In this document: piece by piece, positions 9,430 to 34,830 of the stretch
How the letters are laid out: each line of letters opens with the position of its first letter
Numbering within the stretch: position 1 is the first letter of the stretch
Source: Flavobacterium geliluteum
Lineage (GTDB): Bacteria > Bacteroidota > Bacteroidia > Flavobacteriales > Flavobacteriaceae
DNA: 64,000 nucleotides
Reading direction: 5' to 3'
Assembly (NCBI RefSeq): GCF_017948595.1
Contig: NZ_JAGFBV010000013.1
Span: 1-64,000, forward strand
Translations under genes and position numbers: made by a program
Notes under the pieces: model-generated
Databases searched by the model: none
Seen by the model: only the letters and a program-made list of their open reading frames with translations
Told to the model about the DNA's origin: nothing

Positions 9430-11388
9430 TCAAGATTTAAAATATGCAAATTGTAATGATTTGTTTTTCCAAAATATTAAAGATTTTTTTTCCTCTCCGT
9501 TTATTTTGAAATTAATTGGTTTAAATGGTATTTCGATAGCATCAATACCATAACTGCCACTTACTTTTCCGAGTAGTAATAGCTCGTGCTCGGGTGCTAA
9601 TTTAATCATATCTAAAAATTTGCCCGCACCAATACCTATTGTAGCCAAGTTTAATAAATTACTTATAGGACATTTTAATTGGAATTCTGGGTCTAAAAGC
9701 AAACTATGTAATGGACTAGGATTTATTGATGCATTATATCGAACTTTGTCTACTTGTATATTTAAAAATAAATCTTCTCCTTCTTGTCTTGGAGTTATCG
9801 ATATTTTTGAGTTAACTTCTGGAATATCTACATTTATAGTACTGGAAATCTTTTTATCGTAGTTGGTAAAGCAAAAAAAGATATTCCCTAAATCAATTGG
9901 TTTTAATTCCAAATTAGCTTTTAATTTTGCATCAACTCCTCCTGAATATTTTAGGATGATTTCTGAAAGATCAGGATTAAAATTAAAAGAGTTAAGATTA
10001 ATCGTTGCTTTTCCACTTCCTGACACATCCCCTTTAAATCTCCCTAAAGCTAAAAGACCAGTCGTTTCTCTCCAAATATTACATGCACCTACTTTTGCTT
10101 CATTTTCTACTTGATTCGCAATGCGAGCAGTTTCACGAGCAATTTGCCATGCGACTCTTTCCGCTTCTACTCTAATTCTACAAGCTCGTCTTGTTGCAGC
10201 ACATACAGGGTCTTCCACTCTAATTCGTGCCCAAGGAGGTCCTATTGTATGCATACAATCCCAATTACAACTGTCTCCATTAAAATTAGGATAATTAAAA
10301 TCAGTTCTTACTTTTTGACAATCAATATCTGCTTTTTTTACCTCTAATTTTTCATTGAATGTCGCCTCAGGAATAATGAAATTTTGTTTCAAAATTATTT
10401 GCTTAGACAACGTCTCATTTAAAATATTTGAAATTTCTAATTTGCTAATATTTGTAACAGCTAAATGTTTTGTATCAATCGGTTCAAAAATGCTTATCCA
10501 TGTACTATCATACTTTTCATTGAATGTATTAAATATCTTTTTCAATTCTAAATTAGTTTTCTCAGTAATTGCCGGAGTAGTTAATGTATCCATTGTTGGT
10601 TTATCTTTCATCAATTGAATCATTACTGAAATGCCATCAGATTTTATACGAATGCAAGATTTCTTAATAAATCGAGTTGCTTTTAATGAGTCAGCTATAA
10701 CTTCTGTATTTGGGTCTTTAAACATTTTTTTGAGACTCACTTTGTAAGTCTCCCCCCAACCAGTATAGATTACTGTTGGTTTTTTTAAAAAAGCCCCATT
10801 TAAATTTTCAATGTAGTTTTTAAGAATTGGAGAAATTAATTTTGCTAAAGTTTCTTTTGGTAATTTTGTTTTTTTTCTAAACTTTATGCTCTTTACTTTT
10901 AATGAATTTACTGCGCTTCTTAAATATAAGGAATCTGATTTAGTAGAAACTGCAGTCAAACCGTTTAAATATCCTTTGATTTCTATGCTTTCTTTGGGAA
11001 TTTTAATTTTTGCATTTTCATTTAAAATTTTAATTTCTACATCATTTTTGGGAATAAGAATTGAAAAATCAGCTCCAATAAGAATACCTTGCCTGTCCAA
11101 AGATACTTTTGGTTCAATATTTTGAATTATAATGTTTTCATCATCGATTGATTCTGCTTCATTTTTGATTTCTGTAGGTAAATATTTTAGGATAATGTCT
11201 TTATCAATATTTATTCCTACGTGTGGTTCAAAGTCCGATATTTCTACAAGGTTTCTTTCAATAGATGCGTATTGTTGATCAATTGTAGAAAGTGGAGGAA
11301 ATTGATTATTTATAGCCGTTTTTAGAGGTTTGCAACTTGTAAATGCAATTGCAGCTACCAATATCGAAAGGTATTTAGTGTATTTCAT
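9430..11388 (-). CDS. Large lipoprotein of unknown function
   Basis: A 652-residue lipoprotein. The signal MKYTKYLSILVAAIAFTSC has a lipobox with acylated Cys at residue 19. Residues 20-340 and 430-640 are beta-rich and end in FAYFKS. Between them is an unusual insert, about 355-430, with five cysteines and many Arg and Ala residues (CNWDCMHTIGPPWARIR, then CAATRRACRIRVEAERVAW). It probably forms a disulfide-linked helical hairpin. A TULIP/DUF4403-like lipid-binding fold is possible but only a guess. It lies 102 nt downstream of the outer-membrane-like gene at 12765-11491 on the same strand, so the pair is probably one operon under the dyad-bearing promoter. Confidence 0.6.
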   Translation of the reverse strand: MKYTKYLSILVAAIAFTSCKPLKTAINNQFPPLSTIDQQYASIERNLVEISDFEPHVGINIDKDIILKYLPTEIKNEAESIDDENIIIQNIEPKVSLDRQGILIGADFSILIPKNDVEIKILNENAKIKIPKESIEIKGYLNGLTAVSTKSDSLYLRSAVNSLKVKSIKFRKKTKLPKETLAKLISPILKNYIENLNGAFLKKPTVIYTGWGETYKVSLKKMFKDPNTEVIADSLKATRFIKKSCIRIKSDGISVMIQLMKDKPTMDTLTTPAITEKTNLELKKIFNTFNEKYDSTWISIFEPIDTKHLAVTNISKLEISNILNETLSKQIILKQNFIIPEATFNEKLEVKKADIDCQKVRTDFNYPNFNGDSCNWDCMHTIGPPWARIRVEDPVCAATRRACRIRVEAERVAWQIARETARIANQVENEAKVGACNIWRETTGLLALGRFKGDVSGSGKATINLNSFNFNPDLSEIILKYSGGVDAKLKANLELKPIDLGNIFFCFTNYDKKISSTINVDIPEVNSKISITPRQEGEDLFLNIQVDKVRYNASINPSPLHSLLLDPEFQLKCPISNLLNLATIGIGAGKFLDMIKLAPEHELLLLGKVSGSYGIDAIEIPFKPINFKINGEEKKSLIFWKNKSLQFAYFKS

Positions 11389-11490: not shown

Positions 11491-12765
11491 CTAATTTTCT
11501 TCAATTCCTTTATCCAAACTTATTTTCTTAACTTTAGATAAATTGTACGTTATTCCGAAAAATTTCCCAAATTTGAATTGGCTTTGTGTAGGTATAGTTC
11601 CGGAGTCACCCAAATTGTAAGAGCTACCAACTTGATATCCATCTGCAATTCTATCAACTTTTCCCATAGAAATACCTGCCGAAAAAATAATACGTTCCTG
11701 CTTTCCTAATATAGCCCCAAGACCCAGAAGTACTTGTAGCTTCTGATTTTGAGTTATTACTGCACCAAAATTAAGGGTTGGAACCACCCACGAATTCATT
11801 CGGATATAAGTGTTAATTGTAGAACCAAATGCCATGTCATAATCTCCACTATTTTTTAGCATGATGATTTTATTACCTGAAGTTGCCGGATCGTCTCTTT
11901 TATCATATTCTGAATCATAAAGTGATGTGAAAAATATTCCGGCACTAACATCTATTTTTAAGCCTCCTTTAATCCATATATTATAAGGAGTTGATGCGAA
12001 ATTAGCGTCTTCCTCTTTTGTTTCTTTATTAAAACGACTCAATTTAAATTCTAAAACATCGATGTTTTTACCTTGGATATCGATTGGTAAAGTATAAATA
12101 TCTAAATTGATAGTGTAGAATTTTTGTATAATTGATTCAATACTTTTCTCAGATTTTTCTTTTGTTTCAAGTAAGTTTTTTTGCGTATCTGAGTAACTAG
12201 AACTATTATCTTCAATATTTTGTAAATCATTTAATAAACTATAAATCTTGCCTAATTGTATTTTTGAATTGTCTAAAAATTCTTTCCTTTTAACATTGTA
12301 ATCATCTTCAACAAGCTTGCTTTTTTGCTTTAAAATTTCATAAAAATTTTCTACTTGAAAGTTTAAACTATCTATACTTTTAATCACATTTTCGTTTTCT
12401 TTGATAATTCTTTTTATAGAATCATTCAGAAGAACTAGTTCTGGAATTTCATTATTTACTAGTACTTTTATTCCTTCAATAATACTATCTAGCTTTTTTT
12501 TGTCATTAAAAAAAGAAAGCTCTTTCGTGTCAATTTTATAAGTGTGCTTTAAAGGATTCCAATTTATTAATTTAATAGAGACTAGATCTCTAGATCTTAC
12601 AGAAAGCCATTTACTGCTATCTAAAGCGGTAGATAATGAATCTGTATAAATCGTAATACTTTTTTTGTGTGGCTTCCCTAAATCGACTTCTATGACTTTG
12701 GTTGCTACCTGGCTATAACCAATAATTCCAAAGAATAAATAAAGAATAATTAATGTCGTTTTCAT
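11491..12765 (-). CDS. Secreted coiled-coil protein with probable outer-membrane C-terminus
   Basis: The start chosen is the ATG at 12765, because it begins a signal peptide (MKTTLIILYLFFGIIGYSQ). The longer open frame adds 18 unlikely residues. About 424 residues: an N-terminal strand-rich part, a long coiled coil (about 90-220, rich in Lys, Glu and Ile), then a Gly/aromatic C-terminal part (FGAVITQNQKLQVLLGLG, FGKFFGITYNL) like a small outer-membrane beta-sheet or barrel. I know no named family. It is transcribed divergently from the two-component operon, and both promoters carry the same dyad. It is therefore a likely regulatory target of that system, together with the downstream lipoprotein. 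Confidence 0.6.
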   Translation of the reverse strand: MKTTLIILYLFFGIIGYSQVATKVIEVDLGKPHKKSITIYTDSLSTALDSSKWLSVRSRDLVSIKLINWNPLKHTYKIDTKELSFFNDKKKLDSIIEGIKVLVNNEIPELVLLNDSIKRIIKENENVIKSIDSLNFQVENFYEILKQKSKLVEDDYNVKRKEFLDNSKIQLGKIYSLLNDLQNIEDNSSSYSDTQKNLLETKEKSEKSIESIIQKFYTINLDIYTLPIDIQGKNIDVLEFKLSRFNKETKEEDANFASTPYNIWIKGGLKIDVSAGIFFTSLYDSEYDKRDDPATSGNKIIMLKNSGDYDMAFGSTINTYIRMNSWVVPTLNFGAVITQNQKLQVLLGLGAILGKQERIIFSAGISMGKVDRIADGYQVGSSYNLGDSGTIPTQSQFKFGKFFGITYNLSKVKKISLDKGIEEN

Positions 12766-12791
12766 GATTTCTATGTTTTTAGTTGATGTCC

Positions 12792-12843
12792 CAAATGTAT
12801 TTACAGAACTCCATATCAATCAATTACCCGTTTGGGTGATATT
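12792..12843 (-). promoter_or_regulatory. Promoter and dyad operator of the 12765-9430 operon
   Basis: Minus strand: -7 box TACATTTG at 12799-12792. Upstream at 12843-12822 is a dyad with core ACCCAAACGGGT. There are 26 nt between the dyad core and the -7 box. It is the mirror image of the site at 12920-12941 with one mismatch over 22 nt. Confidence 0.6.
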
Positions 12844-12919
12844 TTATTTTCTTACATTCTTATATTTTTTTGTAAGTTTATTGAATGTTAATTTTATATC
12901 CGGATTAAGCTTATTTTTA

Positions 12920-12970
12920 AATATCACCCAAAAGGGTAATTGCGCTCAATGGGCTTATTACTCAACTTTG
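12920..12970 (+). promoter_or_regulatory. Promoter and dyad operator of the two-component operon
   Basis: A dyad with core ACCCAAAAGGGT (22-nt element 12920-12941), then TTG at the expected -33 position and CAACTTTG (-7-like) at 12963-12970. The dyad-to--7 gap is 25 nt, almost the same as at the divergent promoter. This suggests one activator or repressor acts at both, most simply the response regulator encoded directly downstream. Confidence 0.6.
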
Positions 12971-12988
12971 TAATGAAAATATAACACC

Positions 12989-13618
12989 ATGAATATAAGA
13001 GTTGCTATAGTAGAGGATGATAAAAATTACAGTCAGGCGCTGAAGAATATCATCGACTTTCAAGAAGATATGGAATGTGTAGCTCAGTTTTTTAATGGTA
13101 AAAATGCTTTGCAAAAATTGGAAGCCCTCGAACCAGACGTGGTTTTAATGGACATTCAACTGCAGGATTTATCGGGTATTGATATTGTTTTTAAACTAAC
13201 AGAGTTAATGCCCAGCACTACTTTCGTCATGTGTACCAGTTTTGAAAATGATGAAAAAATCTTTTCTGCCTTGCGTGCCGGCGCGAGTGGTTATCTGGTA
13301 AAAGGTGATTCTTTGGCTAAAATCATTCAGGCGATTCTGGAAGCACACAAAGGTGGAGCGCCCATGAGTTTTGCTATTGCCAAGCGTGTTTTACAGCATT
13401 TTCAGGAATCAAAAGTACAAGTACAAAGTTTAGCATTACTGACTGTAACCGAAAAAGAAGTGCTGGAATTACTGGCGCAGGGACTTCTGTATAAAGAAAT
13501 TGCCGATAAAAAAAGTGTCACCATTGACACCATTAAAAAACACATTGGCAACATTTACAGAAAATTACAGGTAAGCAACAAAATTGAAGCAATTAATAAA
13601 TTTAACCACAAAAACTAA
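12989..13618 (+). CDS. Response regulator, NarL/FixJ (LuxR-HTH) type
   Basis: 209 residues. Receiver domain 1-120 with acidic pocket E9-D10-D11, phospho-acceptor D55 (VVLMDIQLQD), a T/S position in MCTSFEN, and K105 in GYLVKGDS. A LuxR-type HTH follows at about 145-205 (LTVTEKEVLELLAQGLLYKEIA, read in two parts, then TIDTIKKHIGNIYRKL). It is the first gene of a four-gene operon whose last gene is the partner histidine kinase. It probably binds the ACCC-N4-GGGT dyads in its own promoter and in the divergent one; this is inferred from the layout only. Confidence 0.93.
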   Translation: MNIRVAIVEDDKNYSQALKNIIDFQEDMECVAQFFNGKNALQKLEALEPDVVLMDIQLQDLSGIDIVFKLTELMPSTTFVMCTSFENDEKIFSALRAGASGYLVKGDSLAKIIQAILEAHKGGAPMSFAIAKRVLQHFQESKVQVQSLALLTVTEKEVLELLAQGLLYKEIADKKSVTIDTIKKHIGNIYRKLQVSNKIEAINKFNHKN

Positions 13619-13624
13619 GAAATC

Positions 13625-14287
13625 ATGGAATTAGAAAAATTACAAGACAAAGGAATTGATCAAAAAGACTTTTTTATAAAAAAAATTAAAAAAGAGATCG
13701 AAGATATTTTTGTTGAGAGATACAGAAATTTAGGAAAAGGTATTAGTGGATTAACTAAAAGCTTTTTTATAGATCTGGAAATATTTAAAAAGTTACTTAA
13801 AGATAATCAAAACAAAAAATATTGTAAGTTTTATTACATTCAAAAAGATACTTCTTTGAATATAGGTATATGCTTCTCTGATAACTACCAATGTACTATT
13901 AAAGAGAAGGAGGACAAATTATATAACTTATTAGGTGAGACTATACCAGATGAAAATTTTATAAAAATGAAAAATGATTTTGAGAATGGCTTAGCAGATA
14001 AATTATCTCCTTATACTAATAAAATTAAAGATGTTTTGACTTTTTACACTTTGGAAGACATTCAAACTTACTTTGAAACAATCAAAAATTCACACCCTAA
14101 TATTACTATTAATGGCCTAAAATTTAACATGTGGCAGTACTGCCCCACCAATATAGATTCTAGACTTTCAGCAGAATTTATAAAAAGAAATAATAGAATA
14201 TCTTTTTGTGTCCATGCACTATTTAATAAAAAAAATGATTTATATGATGAAGGTGATGCCTATGATTTAGGAAATCTAATGCCTTAA
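13625..14287 (+). CDS. Hypothetical protein in the two-component operon
   Basis: 220 residues, Lys/Asn-rich, no signal peptide or membrane helix. The N-terminus is helical and charged, the middle is strand-rich (YCKFYYIQKDTSLNIGICF), and the C-terminus contains FNMWQYCPTNIDSRLSAEF and ends in DAYDLGNLMP. I do not recognise a family. It begins 6 nt after the response regulator stop and ends 1 nt before the membrane gene, so it is co-transcribed. Its base composition is more AT-rich than that of the flanking regulator genes. It may be an accessory or effector of the signalling system; nothing in the sequence says which. Confidence 0.65.
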   Translation: MELEKLQDKGIDQKDFFIKKIKKEIEDIFVERYRNLGKGISGLTKSFFIDLEIFKKLLKDNQNKKYCKFYYIQKDTSLNIGICFSDNYQCTIKEKEDKLYNLLGETIPDENFIKMKNDFENGLADKLSPYTNKIKDVLTFYTLEDIQTYFETIKNSHPNITINGLKFNMWQYCPTNIDSRLSAEFIKRNNRISFCVHALFNKKNDLYDEGDAYDLGNLMP

Positions 14288-14288
14288 T

Positions 14289-14930
14289 ATGAATAGTATT
14301 TACGAAATAATATTACTTATAACACTACTAAAATCAATAGTTTTGGTTAGAAAGTTCAGTCTTTCCAGCCAAAACTATTTGTTCATATACCTTCTTATTA
14401 CTTTTTTGGTAGAAGTACTTTCGTGGATCATTCTTTTAATAAATAAAGATTCTAAATTTAGTTTTCAATATACTGTATATTGTATATTCTGCATACTATT
14501 TTTCTGGTTTCATTATTCCAGACAATGCCATAAAAAACTAAGAAAAAAAGTCAATATATTATCTGTTATTCTCATAGTTTATGTTTTAGTATTCCCTAGC
14601 TTTTTGGGAGAAGACTTAGTATCAAGATTAGTCATTGCTTTACCTATTTTTTATATCTTATATTCTATGCTATGGTTTTATCAAAAAGTAGCTTTCCCAT
14701 CCAAAGACAAAATTACAGATGATCCTAATTTTTGGATTTCAACCGCTTTACTTCTTTGGAGTTGTTTCTTTATTTTTAGAGTAATTCCGAGATATTTTTT
14801 TGATACTACAGATAAAGATTTTTTAATTTTATTGAGAGAATTGGTATATATCATAAATAGTATAATGTATCTTTTATTTTTCAAAGCTTTGATGAAATAC
14901 GAAATCCTTGCAAAAAATCTAAATAAATGA
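14289..14930 (+). CDS. Multi-pass membrane protein, probable sensor partner
   Basis: 213 residues with about six or seven hydrophobic segments (for example IYEIILLITLLKSIVLV, LFIYLLITFLVEVLSWII, YTVYCIFCILFFWFHY, ILSVILIVYVLVF). No enzymatic motif is visible. Its last four bases overlap the start of the histidine kinase gene (ATGA overlap), which implies translational coupling and equal amounts. The kinase has only one membrane segment and almost no periplasmic part, so this protein may supply the sensing function. That role is inferred from context. Confidence 0.7.
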   Translation: MNSIYEIILLITLLKSIVLVRKFSLSSQNYLFIYLLITFLVEVLSWIILLINKDSKFSFQYTVYCIFCILFFWFHYSRQCHKKLRKKVNILSVILIVYVLVFPSFLGEDLVSRLVIALPIFYILYSMLWFYQKVAFPSKDKITDDPNFWISTALLLWSCFFIFRVIPRYFFDTTDKDFLILLRELVYIINSIMYLLFFKALMKYEILAKNLNK

Positions 14931-15721
14931 GCCAGCTTCCACACGAAATAAAACTGACTTACATCATTGCCATCATCGTAATGTTCATTTTTGTATGTTT
15001 CATAATAATGGTGGTGTTTATTTACAATAAAAAGCAATTGATTCAACAGCAAGAAGATCAAATACGGGAAAGCGAATTCAAAAATCAATTGCTGCAGAAA
15101 GAACTAGAGCGGCAAAAAGCGATTCAGTTAGAAAGAGAACGTATCTCACAAGATATGCATGATGATTTAGGCGCGGGAATTTCGGCCATAAAACTTCAGG
15201 CTGAGTTTTTAAAATATAAAATGCCAAAGGAAAATTATTCCGAAGATTTAGAAGCGATTATCACTACTTCTGAAGATATGAATTTGGCCATGCGGGAAAT
15301 TCTCTGGAGTTTGAATTCTCAAAATGATACTATTGGAAATTTTATAGAATACACCAGTTTGTATATTAAACGTTTTTTGGACAAAACCACAATTAATACA
15401 CAATTAGATTCGAACGTTCTTGAAAAAGAAACCAATTTATCTGTAAAAGCAAGACGAAACCTTTTTTTAGTGGTTAAAGAAGCCATTCATAATGTGTACA
15501 AACACAGTCAGGCAACTAACATCCTTATCCAATTTGAGAAAACCGATACTTCTTTTAAAATTACTGTAACTGATGACGGCATTGGATTATCAGATAGTAT
15601 TCAAAAAGGAAATGGTTTAACCAATATGTCTCTACGAATGGAGAGTATAAACGGAACTTTTAAGATTGTTCCTGTTCAAAAAGGATCTTCTTTGTTGTTT
15701 GTGTGTCCATTAGAGTATTAA
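14927..15721 (+). CDS. Sensor histidine kinase, HisKA_3/NarX type
   Basis: 264 residues. A single membrane helix (about 10-33, IIAIIVMFIFVCFIIMVVF) is followed by a coiled-coil linker rich in Gln and Glu, then the HisKA_3 H-box ERISQDMHDDLGAGISAI with phospho-accepting His78. The HATPase_c domain has an N-box (VVKEAIHNVYKHS) and G boxes (VTDDGIGLS, GNGLTNMSLRME). There is no periplasmic sensor domain. It ends the operon with the response regulator, a hypothetical protein and a membrane protein. Family and partner are clear; the signal is unknown. Confidence 0.92.
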   Translation: MSQLPHEIKLTYIIAIIVMFIFVCFIIMVVFIYNKKQLIQQQEDQIRESEFKNQLLQKELERQKAIQLERERISQDMHDDLGAGISAIKLQAEFLKYKMPKENYSEDLEAIITTSEDMNLAMREILWSLNSQNDTIGNFIEYTSLYIKRFLDKTTINTQLDSNVLEKETNLSVKARRNLFLVVKEAIHNVYKHSQATNILIQFEKTDTSFKITVTDDGIGLSDSIQKGNGLTNMSLRMESINGTFKIVPVQKGSSLLFVCPLEY

Positions 15722-15952: not shown

Positions 15953-15953
15953 T
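15911..15953. repeat. Cassette-end repeat, left copy
   Basis: A 43-nt sequence beginning CTTCGAAAAG and ending TTTGGATGGT. It matches 16651-16693 in 38 of 43 positions in direct orientation. The two copies flank the polyvalent-type kinase gene. Confidence 0.6.
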
Positions 15954-16582
15954 CATGGTTTGTAGAACTGTTCTGTAATGTAGAAAACGGTGTCGATAAA
16001 ATACAAATTACCTTCAAGAGTCAGTACGTTTTCGTCGTGTAAATCTTCCAGAATGATTCCTAAATCTGGATTAAAATAATCGTTGTTTCTTGTGTTCACA
16101 AAGCCATTTTCATTTAGAAATTTTTTGACAATGTCTAATTCTGTTAATTCATCAAATTTTATAAAATCCTGCTCAACAACGGCATACAAAACTTCTTCGG
16201 ATTCATAAAACCCAACTAATTTGTAAGCTGTGTCTGGAAAAAAGAAATTATTCAATAATAAGTTATTAAAATAATCTTCCCACGATAAATAATAAATGGA
16301 ATCATTGAGTTTAAAAACGGTAAACTCATCCTGATGAAGATACACCTTTTGCTCAGCACCACTGGAAACAAAAGAATTGATATTAATATTTGTATTCCAA
16401 AAATTATTTTGGTTACAATATTGCTTTATGATCTCTGCTTCTTCTCTTTTGATTTGCTTGCTGTCTTTAGCTTCGCAACCTGAGCCCTTGCTTCTTCTAA
16501 GGTAATCGGCGACCTCTTGGATAGCATCTCCATGCCTAACTTGGCTCTTTCCTGAAATGATATTTTGTAGTTCATTTTTCAT
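15953..16582 (-). CDS. Putative polyvalent-protein-type kinase
   Basis: 209 residues. The N-terminal helical region (IQEVADYLRRSKG) is typical of this Bacteroidota family. A minimal protein-kinase-like fold follows: glycine loop SSGAEQKVYL near 73-82, candidate ATP-binding lysine K91 (TVFKLND), catalytic loop LEDLHDENVL with H182, D183 and N185, and a metal-binding Asp in LYFIDTVFY (D197). This matches the Ser/Thr/Tyr-like kinase found in polyvalent proteins of phages and mobile elements. It lies next to the IetAS-like pair, and the flanking DNA is directly repeated, consistent with a mobile cassette. The substrate is unknown. Confidence 0.72.
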   Translation of the reverse strand: MKNELQNIISGKSQVRHGDAIQEVADYLRRSKGSGCEAKDSKQIKREEAEIIKQYCNQNNFWNTNININSFVSSGAEQKVYLHQDEFTVFKLNDSIYYLSWEDYFNNLLLNNFFFPDTAYKLVGFYESEEVLYAVVEQDFIKFDELTELDIVKKFLNENGFVNTRNNDYFNPDLGIILEDLHDENVLTLEGNLYFIDTVFYITEQFYKP

Positions 16583-16700: not shown

Positions 16701-19145
16701 TTACAAAGGAATAGTCAATTGATTCATTACTGGAGTATATAAATCAATTTCATTTTCTTCGGTCTCTAAACTAACAATTAAACTATAACGAACTTTTTCA
16801 TTAAATTTATTTTGTCTTTTCAAATTCTTGTACCAACCATTTTTAGGAAAAACTGCCAAAGTATTTCTTTCGGACATAACACGACCAGGCATTGTAATAA
16901 AATCTTTTCGGATTGAACCTTTTGAACTAGTATTAAATCCTATTTCCCATTCAGCACCGTTCCTTTTAGGTTTATTTTCTTTTGTTTCGTCTTCAGGTTT
17001 TGAAATTCTTATCTGAAATTCAGGAATAGTCTCATTTCTTTTAATCAAATCAAAATCTAATTGATGTGAATGATATGAATAATGTGTTGCAAGTCTTCTA
17101 CTTCCTGGATTTGGCTCAATATAATAAGATAATGTTACAATTAGTTTTACTGATTTTTCTTCTAAACTTTGTAAAGCATCAATTGGCCAAGGAAGATTAA
17201 ACAAATGATATTCTTTATATTGCCCTCTAGATTTTTCGTATTTATAAGGTTGTATTTCTCTTTCAGCTATAAGCGTCAATGAATTCTCAACACTATACAT
17301 TGCTTTTTGAATACTCGGAACACCATAACCGACTGTTCGTAATAAATTTCTTTTAACTTGAGCATTTTTCTTCATTGCGTTAGTCCAATCAGCAGAATGA
17401 ACCATTAAACCTCTTATAGTTTCAACCCAATAATTTGGGTAATTAGTTCTTAATTCCGCTGCCATTTTTGATGCTAAAGCTGCTGCTCCGCTAGTATCTC
17501 CAAAAGAAATAAACATATCATTAGCAAAATCGGAATCTGTAGTTAATAGCCTCAATTCTGAATGATCAGATGTATAAACTCCATCTGTAGATCTATTTCC
17601 TCCTTCAAAGACTATATCTGGCTTATTTGGCCAACTATTATCAAATAGAATTGAAGTTGAATTACTTGGAGACATTGCTCCATTTTCTACCAATGGTTTA
17701 TAACCTGTTGAAATATCTATTTTATCTTTTCTTGTGTATGTACCAACAGTTAATGCGTTGTATGCTTGTCCAGGATCACTTATACTTTGTAATTCATTTA
17801 AAACTGGGTAATCATCGTGTTTATTTATTACGACATTTCCTCCACTTACAATAAATAATTGCTGTCCTAATTCCTTTCCAAAACAAATTTTATCAATAGT
17901 AGCTGAACTTGCAGATGGTCTACCGTTAAAAACATTATTTCTTAAAATAGTTAAACAATAAATCCTTAAATTATTTGGTTTATTTATTAATGGTATACTA
18001 ACTGCATTTTCAAATTTGGGACCATCAAATTTTTCGTCTTCTTGAATATTATTAAATATTTTAAATGACTCTAAACCGTGATAAATATTAATATTTTCAG
18101 AAGAACTTAATGCGTCAGTTAAATCTCCATATAATGCTAAACCTGCAACACCAGTTCCATGTCCACCATTCGGATAATTATCTTGAACACCCCAAGATTC
18201 ATTGTGAGAATGTAAATTTTCATCAAAAACAAAGTTTTCTAATAATGGATGTTTATTATTTATACCAGTATCTAATAAGCAGATTAACACACTATTTTCA
18301 TTGAAACTATTTTCTGTCCTGTCTTTCAAATCGTTTAACCATTCTCTTTTGTCTTCATAAGATTCAATAAAATTTGCAATTTCTTGAGGTTTTCTTAATT
18401 CAGCCAAGTTATCCAGCAACAATAAAGAATCTGAAAGTTGTTTTGAAGTTGCTTTAACTAATTTAACAATATATTCTGCTAATTCTATTTGTGATTGTCC
18501 TATTTGACAACCTAAAATATCTAAATTATTATAAACACTATTTAATTTATCAATGCTATTATCTGACTTTCGAAACCAAACCTCCCACCAAACATTTTCA
18601 TTTTCGTTTGGAAATGGAAAATGTAATCCATCTACCCAAAACGATTTTAAAGTAGCAATCTCAATACTTTTAATATTGTTTAATAATGCTTGATTTTTAA
18701 AATTCCCTTTTTCGGAATCTTTTGATGGATCTAGAAATTGTTTAATTTTTTTTATGAACTCAGAAACTCCATTTTCATTAACTACAACTAACAAAGAATA
18801 TCTAAATTCTTTTTTCTCTTCGCTAATTCTTTCTTCTTCCTCAATTTTTAAAAGTTGGAAAAGAATTTTGTTTTTCCTGACACCATCTTTATCAAACTTG
18901 TCAAATTCAAATTTAGTACCCCATTCTGAAACAAACTCAATATATACAGAATCATCAATAAGTAAGTCAGAATTCTCAATCACCTGAATTTCAAATACTT
19001 TCTTTATTTCCTCAATTTTGTTAAGAAGGTAATTACCGTGTGACCTTTCTCTAGCTACTGGTTTATCAGAAATAAGTCTTTTAGGTGTTTTGTATATGTT
19101 TTCTTTGAAATGACCTTCAAATTTAATGTGTGCCTTATTTTTCAT
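16701..19145 (-). CDS. ietS: Subtilisin-like (S8) protease, IetS-like defence protein
   Basis: An 814-residue cytoplasmic protein without signal peptide. Residues 1-280 are a charged N-terminal region. The S8 catalytic triad is complete: Asp292 in LLDTGINNKHP, His329 in GGHGTGVAGLA, and Ser552 in GDTSGAAALAS. An oxyanion Asn is present in VSGGN (about 437). A strand-rich C-terminal domain follows. Its start overlaps the end of the AAA+ ATPase gene by 11 bp, so the two are translated as a pair. An AAA+ ATPase plus a subtilase is the composition of IetAS, an anti-phage system reported in the 2020 survey by Gao and colleagues and earlier linked to plasmid incompatibility. I did not compare against reference sequences. 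Confidence 0.8.
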   Translation of the reverse strand: MKNKAHIKFEGHFKENIYKTPKRLISDKPVARERSHGNYLLNKIEEIKKVFEIQVIENSDLLIDDSVYIEFVSEWGTKFEFDKFDKDGVRKNKILFQLLKIEEEERISEEKKEFRYSLLVVVNENGVSEFIKKIKQFLDPSKDSEKGNFKNQALLNNIKSIEIATLKSFWVDGLHFPFPNENENVWWEVWFRKSDNSIDKLNSVYNNLDILGCQIGQSQIELAEYIVKLVKATSKQLSDSLLLLDNLAELRKPQEIANFIESYEDKREWLNDLKDRTENSFNENSVLICLLDTGINNKHPLLENFVFDENLHSHNESWGVQDNYPNGGHGTGVAGLALYGDLTDALSSSENINIYHGLESFKIFNNIQEDEKFDGPKFENAVSIPLINKPNNLRIYCLTILRNNVFNGRPSASSATIDKICFGKELGQQLFIVSGGNVVINKHDDYPVLNELQSISDPGQAYNALTVGTYTRKDKIDISTGYKPLVENGAMSPSNSTSILFDNSWPNKPDIVFEGGNRSTDGVYTSDHSELRLLTTDSDFANDMFISFGDTSGAAALASKMAAELRTNYPNYWVETIRGLMVHSADWTNAMKKNAQVKRNLLRTVGYGVPSIQKAMYSVENSLTLIAEREIQPYKYEKSRGQYKEYHLFNLPWPIDALQSLEEKSVKLIVTLSYYIEPNPGSRRLATHYSYHSHQLDFDLIKRNETIPEFQIRISKPEDETKENKPKRNGAEWEIGFNTSSKGSIRKDFITMPGRVMSERNTLAVFPKNGWYKNLKRQNKFNEKVRYSLIVSLETEENEIDLYTPVMNQLTIPL

Positions 19146-20121
19146 TTACAACATTTCTCGATTTTAATAATTTTTTCAACGTTGCTAATTCTAATTTATC
19201 CATATCATTCAAAATCATTTCTTTGATGGTATCATTACATATTCTAACAATTTCAGAATAGTTTAATCCTAAAGCAAGCTTGGATAAAACTTTATAATCT
19301 ACTTTTGTTGAAAAAGAAAATGCTTTTGTATGTTTCTTTATTATTTCAACTATATGATTCTCATCAGGTAATGGATATTCTATAATTTCATCAAATCTTC
19401 TAAATAATGCCTTATCAAGAGATTCTGGCAGATTTGTTGCCGCAATTATTATACTATTACTTTGGTCTTTCTCAATATTTATTAAGAAAGAATTTAATAC
19501 TCTCTTTATTTCTCCAATATCCTGATTTTGATTTCTATGTGAACCAATAGAATCGAATTCATCAAAAAGATAAACAGCTCTTTGGTCATTCATTGCATCG
19601 AAAATCAATCTTAGTTTTGCTATTGATTCTCCCAAATATTTAGACATTAAACCATCTAATCTTATAATAAAAACAGTGATACCCAATTCTCCAGCAATTG
19701 CTTGAGCGGTCATCGTTTTACCTGTTCCAGGTGCTCCTGTCAATAATAATTTACGCTTAGGTTCTAAATTATGAGCTTTTAAAATTTGCCATTTTTCTTG
19801 TTCTTTAATAACTTTATAAAGAGTTTCTTTAATATTTTCATCCAAAACCATATCACTTAAATTAATTTTAGGTTGAAAAACCTCAATTAATTCTTGCAAT
19901 TCTCTTTTTGGCAAATTTAAAGGTAAAGCCTTGTTATGGATAGCACTTACTGACCTATCCTTTTTTGCTACATCAATTAGTTTTTTTAATTCTTGAGCAA
20001 ATGTTGTATGTCCTTGCTTTGCTTCGGTAGCAGCAATTTGCAAAGCAATTGAAAAGAAACGACTTTCATCGTCATCTCCAAAAGACTTAATCAAGGATTT
20101 TATTTGGTCTGCTGCTGCCAT
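19135..20121 (-). CDS. ietA: AAA+ ATPase, IetA-like defence protein
   Basis: 328 residues. The N-terminal helical part (1-90, MAAADQIKSLIKSFGDDDES) is followed by an AAA core with Walker A GAPGTGKT (129-136), Walker B YLFDEFDS (184-191), sensor 1 IIAATNLPESLD and arginine finger FRRFDEI. This is the FtsH/spastin-like AAA class. It is directly upstream of, and overlaps by 11 bp, the S8 protease gene. In IetAS the ATPase is thought to control the protease; the trigger is unknown. The high AT content and position among other accessory genes fit horizontal transfer. Confidence 0.82.
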   Translation of the reverse strand: MAAADQIKSLIKSFGDDDESRFFSIALQIAATEAKQGHTTFAQELKKLIDVAKKDRSVSAIHNKALPLNLPKRELQELIEVFQPKINLSDMVLDENIKETLYKVIKEQEKWQILKAHNLEPKRKLLLTGAPGTGKTMTAQAIAGELGITVFIIRLDGLMSKYLGESIAKLRLIFDAMNDQRAVYLFDEFDSIGSHRNQNQDIGEIKRVLNSFLINIEKDQSNSIIIAATNLPESLDKALFRRFDEIIEYPLPDENHIVEIIKKHTKAFSFSTKVDYKVLSKLALGLNYSEIVRICNDTIKEMILNDMDKLELATLKKLLKSRNVVNEK

Positions 20122-33024: not shown

Positions 33025-34830
33025 ATGGCAGATACAATCGAAAAAAACGTAACCCGTGGTGGTCAGTTTTTAGTTAAAGAAACAAAGTGCGAAGATATCT
33101 TTACACCAGAAGATTTTTCGGAAGAGCAACTAATGATGCGTGACTCTGTAAAAGAGTTCGTTGACAAAGAATTATGGGCGCACAAAGATCGTTTTGAAAA
33201 GAAAGATTATGCGTATACAGAATCATCTATGCGTAAAGCGGGTGAATTAGGACTTTTGGGAGTTGCAGTTCCTGAAGAATACGGCGGATTAGGAATGGGA
33301 TTCGTATCTACAATGTTAGTTTGCGATTACATTTCTGGTGCAACAGGTTCTTTCTCAACTGCTTTTGGAGCACATACCGGAATTGGTACTATGCCAATTA
33401 CCCTTTATGGTTCTGAAGAGCAAAAGAAAAAATACGTTCCTAAATTGGCTTCTGGCGAATGGTTTGGAGCATATTGCTTGACTGAGCCAGGTGCAGGATC
33501 TGATGCCAACTCTGGAAAAACAAAAGCGGTTCTGTCTGAAGACGGAACGCATTACAAAATTACAGGTCAAAAAATGTGGATTTCGAATGCAGGTTTTTGT
33601 AGCCTTTTCATCGTTTTTGCCCGTATTGGTGATGATAAAAACATTACAGGTTTTATTGTGGAAAACGATCCATCAAACGGAATTTCTATGAATGAAGAAG
33701 AGCATAAATTAGGAATCCGTGCTTCTTCTACACGTCAGGTTTTCTTTAATGATACTAAAGTTCCTGTAGAAAACATGTTGTCTGAAAGAGGAAACGGTTT
33801 CAAAATTGCAATGAATGCTTTGAACGTTGGTCGTATCAAATTGGCTGCCGCTTGTCTGGACGCACAACGTAGAGTAACTTCAGGAGCAGTAAAATATTCA
33901 AACGAAAGAATTCAATTTAATACAGCAATTTCAAGTTTTGGTGCTATTCGTTCAAAATTAGCCGAAATGGCAACAAACTGTTACGCAGGTGAAAGTGCCT
34001 CTTACAGAGCTGCAAAAGATATCGAAGACAGAATTGCTGCTCGTGAAGCAGAAGGATCTACACATCAGGAAGCTGAATTAAAAGGTGTTGAAGAATATGC
34101 TATCGAATGTTCTATTTTGAAAGTAGCCGTTTCTGAAGATGTTCAGAACTGTGCCGATGAAGGAATTCAGGTTTTTGGCGGAATGGGCTTCTCTGAAGAT
34201 ACTCCGATGGAAAGTGCCTGGAGAGATGCTCGTATCGCTCGTATCTACGAAGGAACAAACGAAATCAACAGAATGCTTTCTGTAGGAATGCTGATCAAAA
34301 AAGCAATGAAAGGTCATGTTGATCTACTAGGACCAGCTATGAAAGTTCAGGAAGAATTGATGGGAATTCCTTCTTTTGACACTCCGGATTTCTCTGAATT
34401 ATTTGCTGAAGAAAAAGGAATACTTGCTAATCTGAAAAAAGTTTTCTTGATGGTTGCCGGAAGTGCTGTGCAAAAATACGGACCAGATTTAGATTCTCAC
34501 CAACAGTTATTAATGGCTGCTTCAGACATCTTGATCGAAATCTATATGGCTGAAAGTACTATTTTAAGAACCGAGAAATTGGCCAAAAAAGAAGGTGAAG
34601 CTAAAGTACAAGAGCAAATTGCTATGGCAAAATTATACTTATACAAAGCTGTAGATATCGTAAACTCTAAAGGAAAAGAAGGAATTATTTCTTTTGCCGA
34701 AGGTGACGAGCAACGTATGATGCTAATGGGATTAAAACGTTTTACAAAATACACAAACAATCCAAATGTTGTAGCTTTAAGAGAGGTTATTACATCTAAA
34801 TTAGTGGCAGAAAACGAATACTGCTTCTAA
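33025..34830 (+). CDS. Acyl-CoA dehydrogenase
   Basis: A 601-residue flavoenzyme that introduces the first double bond of beta-oxidation. N-terminal helical domain (FSEEQLMMRDSVKEFVDKE), the ACAD signature WFGAYCLTEPGAGSDANS, then GQKMWISNAGF in the middle domain, and a C-terminal helical domain with IQVFGGMGFSEDTPMESAWR and the RIYEGTNEINRM motif. The extra C-terminal 150 residues are as in the larger Bacteroidota/VLCAD-like members. It is the last gene of the operon and is followed by a strong terminator. The acyl chain length used is not readable. Confidence 0.93.
   Translation: MADTIEKNVTRGGQFLVKETKCEDIFTPEDFSEEQLMMRDSVKEFVDKELWAHKDRFEKKDYAYTESSMRKAGELGLLGVAVPEEYGGLGMGFVSTMLVCDYISGATGSFSTAFGAHTGIGTMPITLYGSEEQKKKYVPKLASGEWFGAYCLTEPGAGSDANSGKTKAVLSEDGTHYKITGQKMWISNAGFCSLFIVFARIGDDKNITGFIVENDPSNGISMNEEEHKLGIRASSTRQVFFNDTKVPVENMLSERGNGFKIAMNALNVGRIKLAAACLDAQRRVTSGAVKYSNERIQFNTAISSFGAIRSKLAEMATNCYAGESASYRAAKDIEDRIAAREAEGSTHQEAELKGVEEYAIECSILKVAVSEDVQNCADEGIQVFGGMGFSEDTPMESAWRDARIARIYEGTNEINRMLSVGMLIKKAMKGHVDLLGPAMKVQEELMGIPSFDTPDFSELFAEEKGILANLKKVFLMVAGSAVQKYGPDLDSHQQLLMAASDILIEIYMAESTILRTEKLAKKEGEAKVQEQIAMAKLYLYKAVDIVNSKGKEGIISFAEGDEQRMMLMGLKRFTKYTNNPNVVALREVITSKLVAENEYCF

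Follow-up and report, generated by a model that had tools for sequence, protein, structure and literature searches.

Among NarL/LuxR-type response regulators, NarL reads inverted heptamer half-sites and ComA reads inverted half-sites separated by an N4 gap, and class-II activators of this family usually sit centred near −44. The Bacteroidota sigma-A promoter carries a TTG as its −33 element. Variable genes behind a constant promoter are known from integron-like cassette arrays. For LiaR of S. mutans, PMC4447274 describes a 25-bp binding motif with an inverted repeat.

Here we analyze a 64,000-nucleotide stretch of the Flavobacterium geliluteum genome (the window; positions 1 to 64,000 of contig NZ_JAGFBV010000013.1), in which a two-component operon and a second gene group diverge from a short intergenic region (Table 1). 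The operon resembles LiaFSR and VraTSR in having a short HisKA_3-type kinase, a separate membrane protein and a NarL/LuxR-type regulator, and the solved regulators that match best carry the name VraR. However, its motif differs and its cargo, as we call the genes behind the second operator, is exchanged. The 213-aa hydrophobic protein, probably the membrane partner of the kinase, matched no family, LiaF-type or other, in Pfam (E 1e-3) or NCBIfam (E 0.01), and the kinase scored 57.9 bits against Strep_LiaS, whose cut-off is 450. As no LiaF-like protein was found and the kinase falls well short of the LiaS threshold, the operon does not belong to the LiaFSR systems. Searches of the open-licence literature returned no description of this two-component system among the matches listed. 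On sequence grounds, we consider it likely that two dyads in the intergenic region are operators of the adjacent LuxR-type regulator, autoregulated class-II-type activator sites that tag interchangeable, mostly exported cargo.

Table 1 Features of the two-component locus and its predicted control region (window coordinates)
Feature	Position	Strand	Remarks
Second cargo gene, 652-aa putative lipoprotein	9430..11388	−	No Pfam family above cut-off
First cargo gene, 424-aa exported protein	11491..12765	−	
Intergenic region between divergent gene groups	12766-12988		
−7 box TACATTTG, divergent promoter	12792..12799	−	Start predicted near 12787 (arithmetic)
Divergent-side operator (predicted)	12821..12844	−	Conserved 20-mer 12840-12821, minus strand; last 3 bases 12823-12821 = −33 TTG
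Regulator-side (RR-side) operator (predicted), 24-nt arm	12919..12942	+	Conserved 20-mer 12923-12942; last 3 bases = −33 TTG
−7 box CAACTTTG, regulator promoter	12963..12970	+	Start predicted near 12975 (arithmetic)
LuxR/NarL-type response regulator, proposed binder of both dyads	12989..13618	+	Pfam Response_reg + GerE; co-occurrence
220-aa protein without family	13625..14287	+	Often replaced or diverged in relatives
213-aa hydrophobic protein	14289..14930	+	
Histidine kinase (HisKA_3, HATPase_c), short, without large sensor domain	14927..15721	+	

Genes of the locus

The regulator combines a receiver (Response_reg, 80.4 bits; cut-off 30.2) with a GerE/LuxR helix-turn-helix domain (GerE, 50.2 bits; cut-off 23.5), the make-up of the NarL/LuxR type. 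A low-confidence structural model of the 424-aa protein (mean pLDDT 55.3, pTM 0.34) has a helical middle and a strand-rich C-terminal part. None of four cargo proteins was named by NCBIfam, and neither the 652-aa nor the 220-aa protein was named by PADLOC.

Adjoining the locus on the minus strand (16701-20121), a subtilase that matches PADLOC IetS (best E 8e-37) and an AAA ATPase that matches PADLOC IetA (best E 1e-73) probably form an IetAS anti-phage defence pair. A Kinase-PolyVal domain protein (E 2.9e-60) is encoded at 15953-16582, also on the minus strand, and shortened relatives of it stand beside the locus in L046 and L049.

Paired dyads at predicted divergent promoters

A sequence-only reading of the window had picked out two 22-nt mirror-image sites with one mismatch, and we recovered them at the same coordinates (12822-12843 and 12920-12941, inverted copies with one mismatch in 22 nt). 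Dinucleotide-shuffled versions of the 223-bp intergenic region (n = 200) yielded no inverted 22-mer pair with fewer than 4 mismatches, the best pair of each version having 4-9 (mode 7); the natural arms can be extended to the 24-nt operators of Table 1 with 96% complementarity. The proposed distance of 25-26 nt from site to −7 box also held, at 25 nt on the RR side and 26 nt on the divergent side when measured to TTTG. The dyads had further been said to abut the −33 region; they in fact overlap the −33 element, as the conserved motif ATCACCC-N4-GGGTAATTG ends in its TTG.

The −7 box of the divergent promoter (TACATTTG) matches the Bacteroidota sigma-A pattern TAnnTTTG exactly, and that of the regulator promoter (CAACTTTG) departs from it at the first base. 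PMC9723704 places TAnnTTTG at −12 to −5. With that placement, arithmetic on the predicted starts puts the dyad centres at −43.5 and −44.5, so that both dyads lie within the class-II range (centre near −41 to −45) and touch the −33/−35 element. Class-II activation is most likely, given a centre near −44 and the reach into the −33 element. From the A of ATCACCC to the TTTG of the −7 box there are 44 bases on the RR side of the window and 45 on the divergent side, a distance that varies little across other loci. Dyad-to-dyad spacing, compared without L042 (Ns in that stretch), differs between loci (82-102 and 120 bp), so each promoter probably works alone; a loop joining both dyads at a fixed helical phase is unlikely, given this variation.

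An element between the dyads, TTTTTTTGTAAGTTTATT (at about 12863-12885, plus strand), is kept by eye in most Flavobacterium loci and may be the −33 portion of a promoter that serves the regulator operon independently of the operators.

A long motif specific to the locus

Upstream regions of 26 loci (the window, 22 Flavobacterium and 3 Chryseobacterium/Kaistella) gave the full site as AATATCACCC-N4-GGGTAATTG; on the strand that runs toward the promoter, the N4 is mostly A-rich. A perfect palindrome would be ATTACCC-N4-GGGTAAT; most Flavobacterium copies have C in place of T at the third base of the half farther from the promoter, which gives the site a direction.

The short core ACCC-N4-GGGT occurs at 10 places in the 4.38-Mb genome versus 12 for its reversed control, and was dropped as a search key in favour of the long motif because it did no better than that control; the other 8 places (7 in open frames, 1 intergenic) all have at least 3 mismatches to the long motif. 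At up to 3 mismatches the long motif was found at 24 places versus 10 for the control: 2 perfect, 1 with 2 mismatches and 21 with 3. The only perfect places in the genome are the two dyads, both at the regulator's divergent promoters. The 2-mismatch place (G000:C25:323946) lies inside a gene and was dropped as chance, and a weight-matrix hit of 13.6 at 33926 in the window is at chance level.

The site tracks the regulator in Flavobacterium

The sequence-only reading depended on the dyads being kept in orthologous divergent regions, and they are present across 23 Flavobacterium loci (window + 22). All 23 carry the RR-side dyad, 22 of them perfectly and L053 with 2 mismatches; the divergent dyad, at up to 2 mismatches, is found in 22, the exception (L049) having no divergent cargo operon. 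The two dyads of L053 share an identical C-to-A change, and the site of L003 lies 0.94 kb upstream of the regulator.

Nineteen of 398 Flavobacterium genomes encode the regulator at E 1e-70 or better. The motif at up to one mismatch was found in 32 of the 398, namely all 19 regulator-positive genomes and 13 others with single hits, and side-by-side site pairs in 17/19 regulator-positive genomes versus 0/379 others (G201 and G337 have one site each at this threshold). The 12 regulator-negative hits that were fetched (all except G398) lie in open frames of at least 150 codons without a −7 box, and we rejected them as regulon members. When the motif was combined with a −7 box pattern, the divergent promoter was found at up to one mismatch in 18/19 genomes, G201 missing, and the RR promoter in 19/19 (17 with 1 mismatch, 2 with 3). 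G201 and L049, probably one record, have a single operator and no divergent cargo operon. Named loci and the genome set overlap (L039/G004, L049/G201), and genomes within a genus are related, so these counts overstate independence, though two genera with different layouts agree.

Upstream of regulators with at most 45% identity, no N4-spaced site was found within 150 nt. Balneola-group regulators (34-35% identical; L066, L067, L069) have ATACCC-N6-GGGTAT within 150 nt upstream (score 12 versus shuffle maxima of 10-11), perhaps a related half-site with a wider gap.

Chryseobacterium-type genomes as test and control

The regulator is present at E 1e-60 in 81/98 Chryseobacterium-type genomes (the genus of G040), with internal stops in G425 and G482. 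Twenty of the 81, picked by eye down the list among long contigs, were fetched and scanned with a weight matrix trained on Flavobacterium sites only (threshold 13). A site was found upstream of the regulator in 20/20 loci, at −66 to −72 in 19 and at −374 in L215, and a second site behind the kinase and before cargo in 19/20; in the remaining locus, L216, eno follows the kinase and there is no cargo. One extra gene separates kinase and second site in L222, L226 and L228. The second operator is thus downstream of the kinase in the Chryseobacterium type and divergent from the regulator in Flavobacterium, with cargo behind both. The weakest scores (13.1 for the RR side of L217, 13.6 for L227) do not exceed the chance hit of the window, and these two sites rest on position. 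A relaxed core, written after such loci had been seen, was found without mismatch in 20/20 RR-side regions and at 18/20 second sites (one mismatch in L227, no site in L216), and GTAATTG stands 24 bases from TTTG in 19/20 RR-side and 18/19 second sites.

In the same genus, 17 genomes have no regulator at E 1e-60, and 14 of these had no promoter-like match at up to one mismatch. The other three (G457, G479 and G494) had one or two such matches each, and their regulators are damaged: that of G457 lies in two segments in different frames, and the match ends early in G479 and G494. Three Chryseobacterium-type loci (L242, L243, L244) keep one or more operators beside a damaged or shortened regulator and constitute natural loss-of-function strains. 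No plasmid record searched encodes the regulator at E 1e-40. Four motif matches in viral contigs were discarded, as judged by eye they had no TTTG at the right distance.

Sites away from the locus

Applied to 10 regulator-positive Chryseobacterium-type genomes, the promoter pattern at up to one mismatch returned 26 matches, of which 19 belong to the locus and 7 lie elsewhere, versus 0 for the reversed control. Behind the distant site of G422 are genes for a 132-aa and a 415-aa protein, the second sharing 42-44% identity with known cargo (E 7e-110 to 9e-116). The distant site of G436:C2 precedes a gene for an exported protein of 281 aa with weak similarity to the 424-aa family (31-35% over 71 aa, E about 1e-5 to 8e-5). 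Genes behind the other 5 of the 7 had no match to the cargo set.

A third site with a −7 box was found in two Flavobacterium genomes, G158 and G272, 8.7 and 15.5 kb away, before a gene for a 421-aa exported protein. This family occurs in 4/398 Flavobacterium genomes, all regulator-positive; in G004 and G208 its member lies within the divergent gene run. The 1-mismatch distant sites of G300 and G084 are inside genes and were dropped as chance. Three distant promoter matches with 3 mismatches also turned up in Flavobacterium, in G410 (divergent-type pattern) and in G396 and G181 (RR-type pattern); the reversed control gave 3 matches in the search that returned G396 and G181 and none in that which returned G410. 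The sites at G396:C1:26570 and G181:C48:29510, both off-locus in regulator-positive Flavobacterium, resemble each other (ATCACCAAAATTGGTGATTG).

Cargo is exchanged behind a conserved promoter

Grouped by blastp, the main genes behind the divergent operator make up 9 families across 22 loci (counting the window but not L049); a shorter gene precedes the main gene in L041, L042, L063 and L062, and in L050 the gap before it is unresolved. On the regulator-gene tree, which is partly resolved (7/20 inner branches well supported), the 9 families require at least 11 changes, the least possible being 8 and the shuffled mean 12.5, and 15 of 200 shuffles were as low. Well-supported neighbours with different cargo are L045/L048, L054/L055, L052/L053 and L041+L042/L043. 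Among locus pairs that differ in cargo (n = 10), identity is 84-99% over the 80 nt upstream of the cargo start codon and 33-47% over codons 21-120; the sole same-cargo pair has 91% and 71%, respectively.

Over both genera, 104 genes behind operators (up to four same-strand genes per operator, a set that may include non-cargo neighbours) form 39 families, 4 of them common to both: the 424-aa family, a 320/326-aa family, a family of ~385-aa exported proteins, and a membrane family that includes the pYEATS protein of L056. Pfam put a name to few of the proteins. Its domain DUF4403 was found in 3/10 cargo proteins tested and is absent from the window's own lipoprotein. Relatives of the 424-aa protein were found at E 1e-6 in 27/398 genomes, 11 regulator-positive and 16 regulator-negative (15 weak, E 4e-13 to 9e-7, and G388 strong, 2e-47); relatives of the window's cargo therefore also occur without the system.

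pYEATS and YLATT proteins are components of bacterial conflict systems. Among 10 cargo proteins, domains above Pfam cut-offs included pYEATS (L056:2360-3427, E 7e-14) and YLATT (L223:1307-2128, E 1e-11). The first gene behind the post-kinase operator often encodes a protein of 108-110 aa that has a single hydrophobic stretch and matches no family (L217:4049-4375; similar in L215, L218, L220, L221, L224, L225, L229 and L233).

Two loci carry additional operators. L040 has a third operator before an older cassette, followed by an intergenic-region remnant whose similarity stops inside the RR-side dyad position, and L050 has a third operator and a decayed fourth of RR type, beyond which the sequence resembles the beginning of the regulator gene. 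The arrangement in both loci suggests that a new cassette was inserted beside the regulator together with a fresh promoter region, the older cassette keeping its operator.

Discussion

The site, its geometry, its distribution and the exchange of cargo behind it are read directly from the genomes. We infer the binding, phosphorylation, activation and stimulus of the regulator. The kinase and the hydrophobic protein would sense something at the envelope, a guess prompted by the VraR name of the best-matching solved regulators. The regulator, presumably phosphorylated, would then bind the dyad, and the distribution of the site strongly supports binding. Its dimer would read a pair of ATTAC(C/A)C half-sites separated by four bases, with the centre near −44 and one end in the −33 element, and may help polymerase at −33/−7, as the position of the dyads relative to the predicted starts suggests. 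The bound regulator would raise its own operon (regulator, variable protein, hydrophobic protein and kinase) and the other tagged promoters, that is, the divergent operon here, the post-kinase operon of the Chryseobacterium relatives and a small number of distant genes. Promoter and leader with this tag stay stable, and the mostly exported or envelope protein genes behind them are exchanged between strains. A single regulator, the LuxR-type protein encoded next door, had been proposed from the window, and the motif tracking that regulator across two genera supports this. The accompanying view that its target is the divergent operon fits this genome but is too narrow, as the gene behind the divergent operator changes between species and further copies of the site precede other genes.

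Since the −33 TTG of each promoter falls within the dyad, the same regulator could instead act as a repressor, blocking RNA polymerase at both until a signal arrives. We regard this as unlikely: centres near −44 from the predicted starts coincide with the usual class-II activator position, and the imperfect −7 box of the regulator promoter is as expected where a promoter needs help. It is very improbable that a different regulator encoded elsewhere reads the dyads, with the two-component operon as one target among several. The role of the neighbouring regulator is itself a prediction, and a few sites lie away from the locus; yet the site follows the adjacent regulator gene in two genera, the 3 apparent exceptions keep fragments of it, and most matches in the 10 Chryseobacterium genomes (19/26) are at the locus.

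The exchange of cargo, the duplicated intergenic remnants in L040 and L050 and the end of similarity inside the RR-side dyad of L040 would also suit mobile-cassette ends or recombination sites, such as terminal inverted repeats or attachment sites, a reading to which we give hardly any credence. The copies point at a −7 box from a nearly fixed distance, their placement differs between the two genera, dyad-to-dyad spacing varies, and the L050 remnant continues through the promoter into regulator-like codons. Transposon terminal inverted repeats mark the two ends of a mobile unit; these copies lie at promoters, at a fixed distance from the −7 box, and their pair spacing varies.

Taking the dyads as operators of the adjacent regulator, a bolder and doubtful extension is a Flavobacteriia plug-in system, in which the operator-promoter block serves as regulatory address and as homology socket for cargo capture. 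New cassettes might land beside the regulator and push older ones outward with a copy of the operator, as L040 and L050 suggest. If so, the cargo, including outer-membrane and secreted proteins, DUF4403 lipoproteins, and pYEATS and YLATT proteins, would form a polymorphic repertoire for conflict or envelope defence that one signal switches on.

The motif provides a specific candidate binding site for a two-component system of 81/98 Chryseobacterium-type and 19/398 Flavobacterium genomes. As a search key it may gather nameless, mostly exported proteins into one co-regulated, interchangeable set and find what a little-known sensing system controls. Loci in which promoter and leader are 84-99% identical but the cargo differs offer natural experiments.

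The system shares with NarL-type regulators (NarL, ComA) its domain make-up and a palindromic site with a short gap, but its half-site is ATTAC(C/A)C with N4, and it has two promoters plus few others rather than a broad regulon. With integron-like arrays it shares a constant promoter, variable genes and, in L040 and L050, an older cassette behind a newer one, whereas older cassettes here keep their own tagged promoter. The unusual feature is a dedicated operator with an exchanged target.
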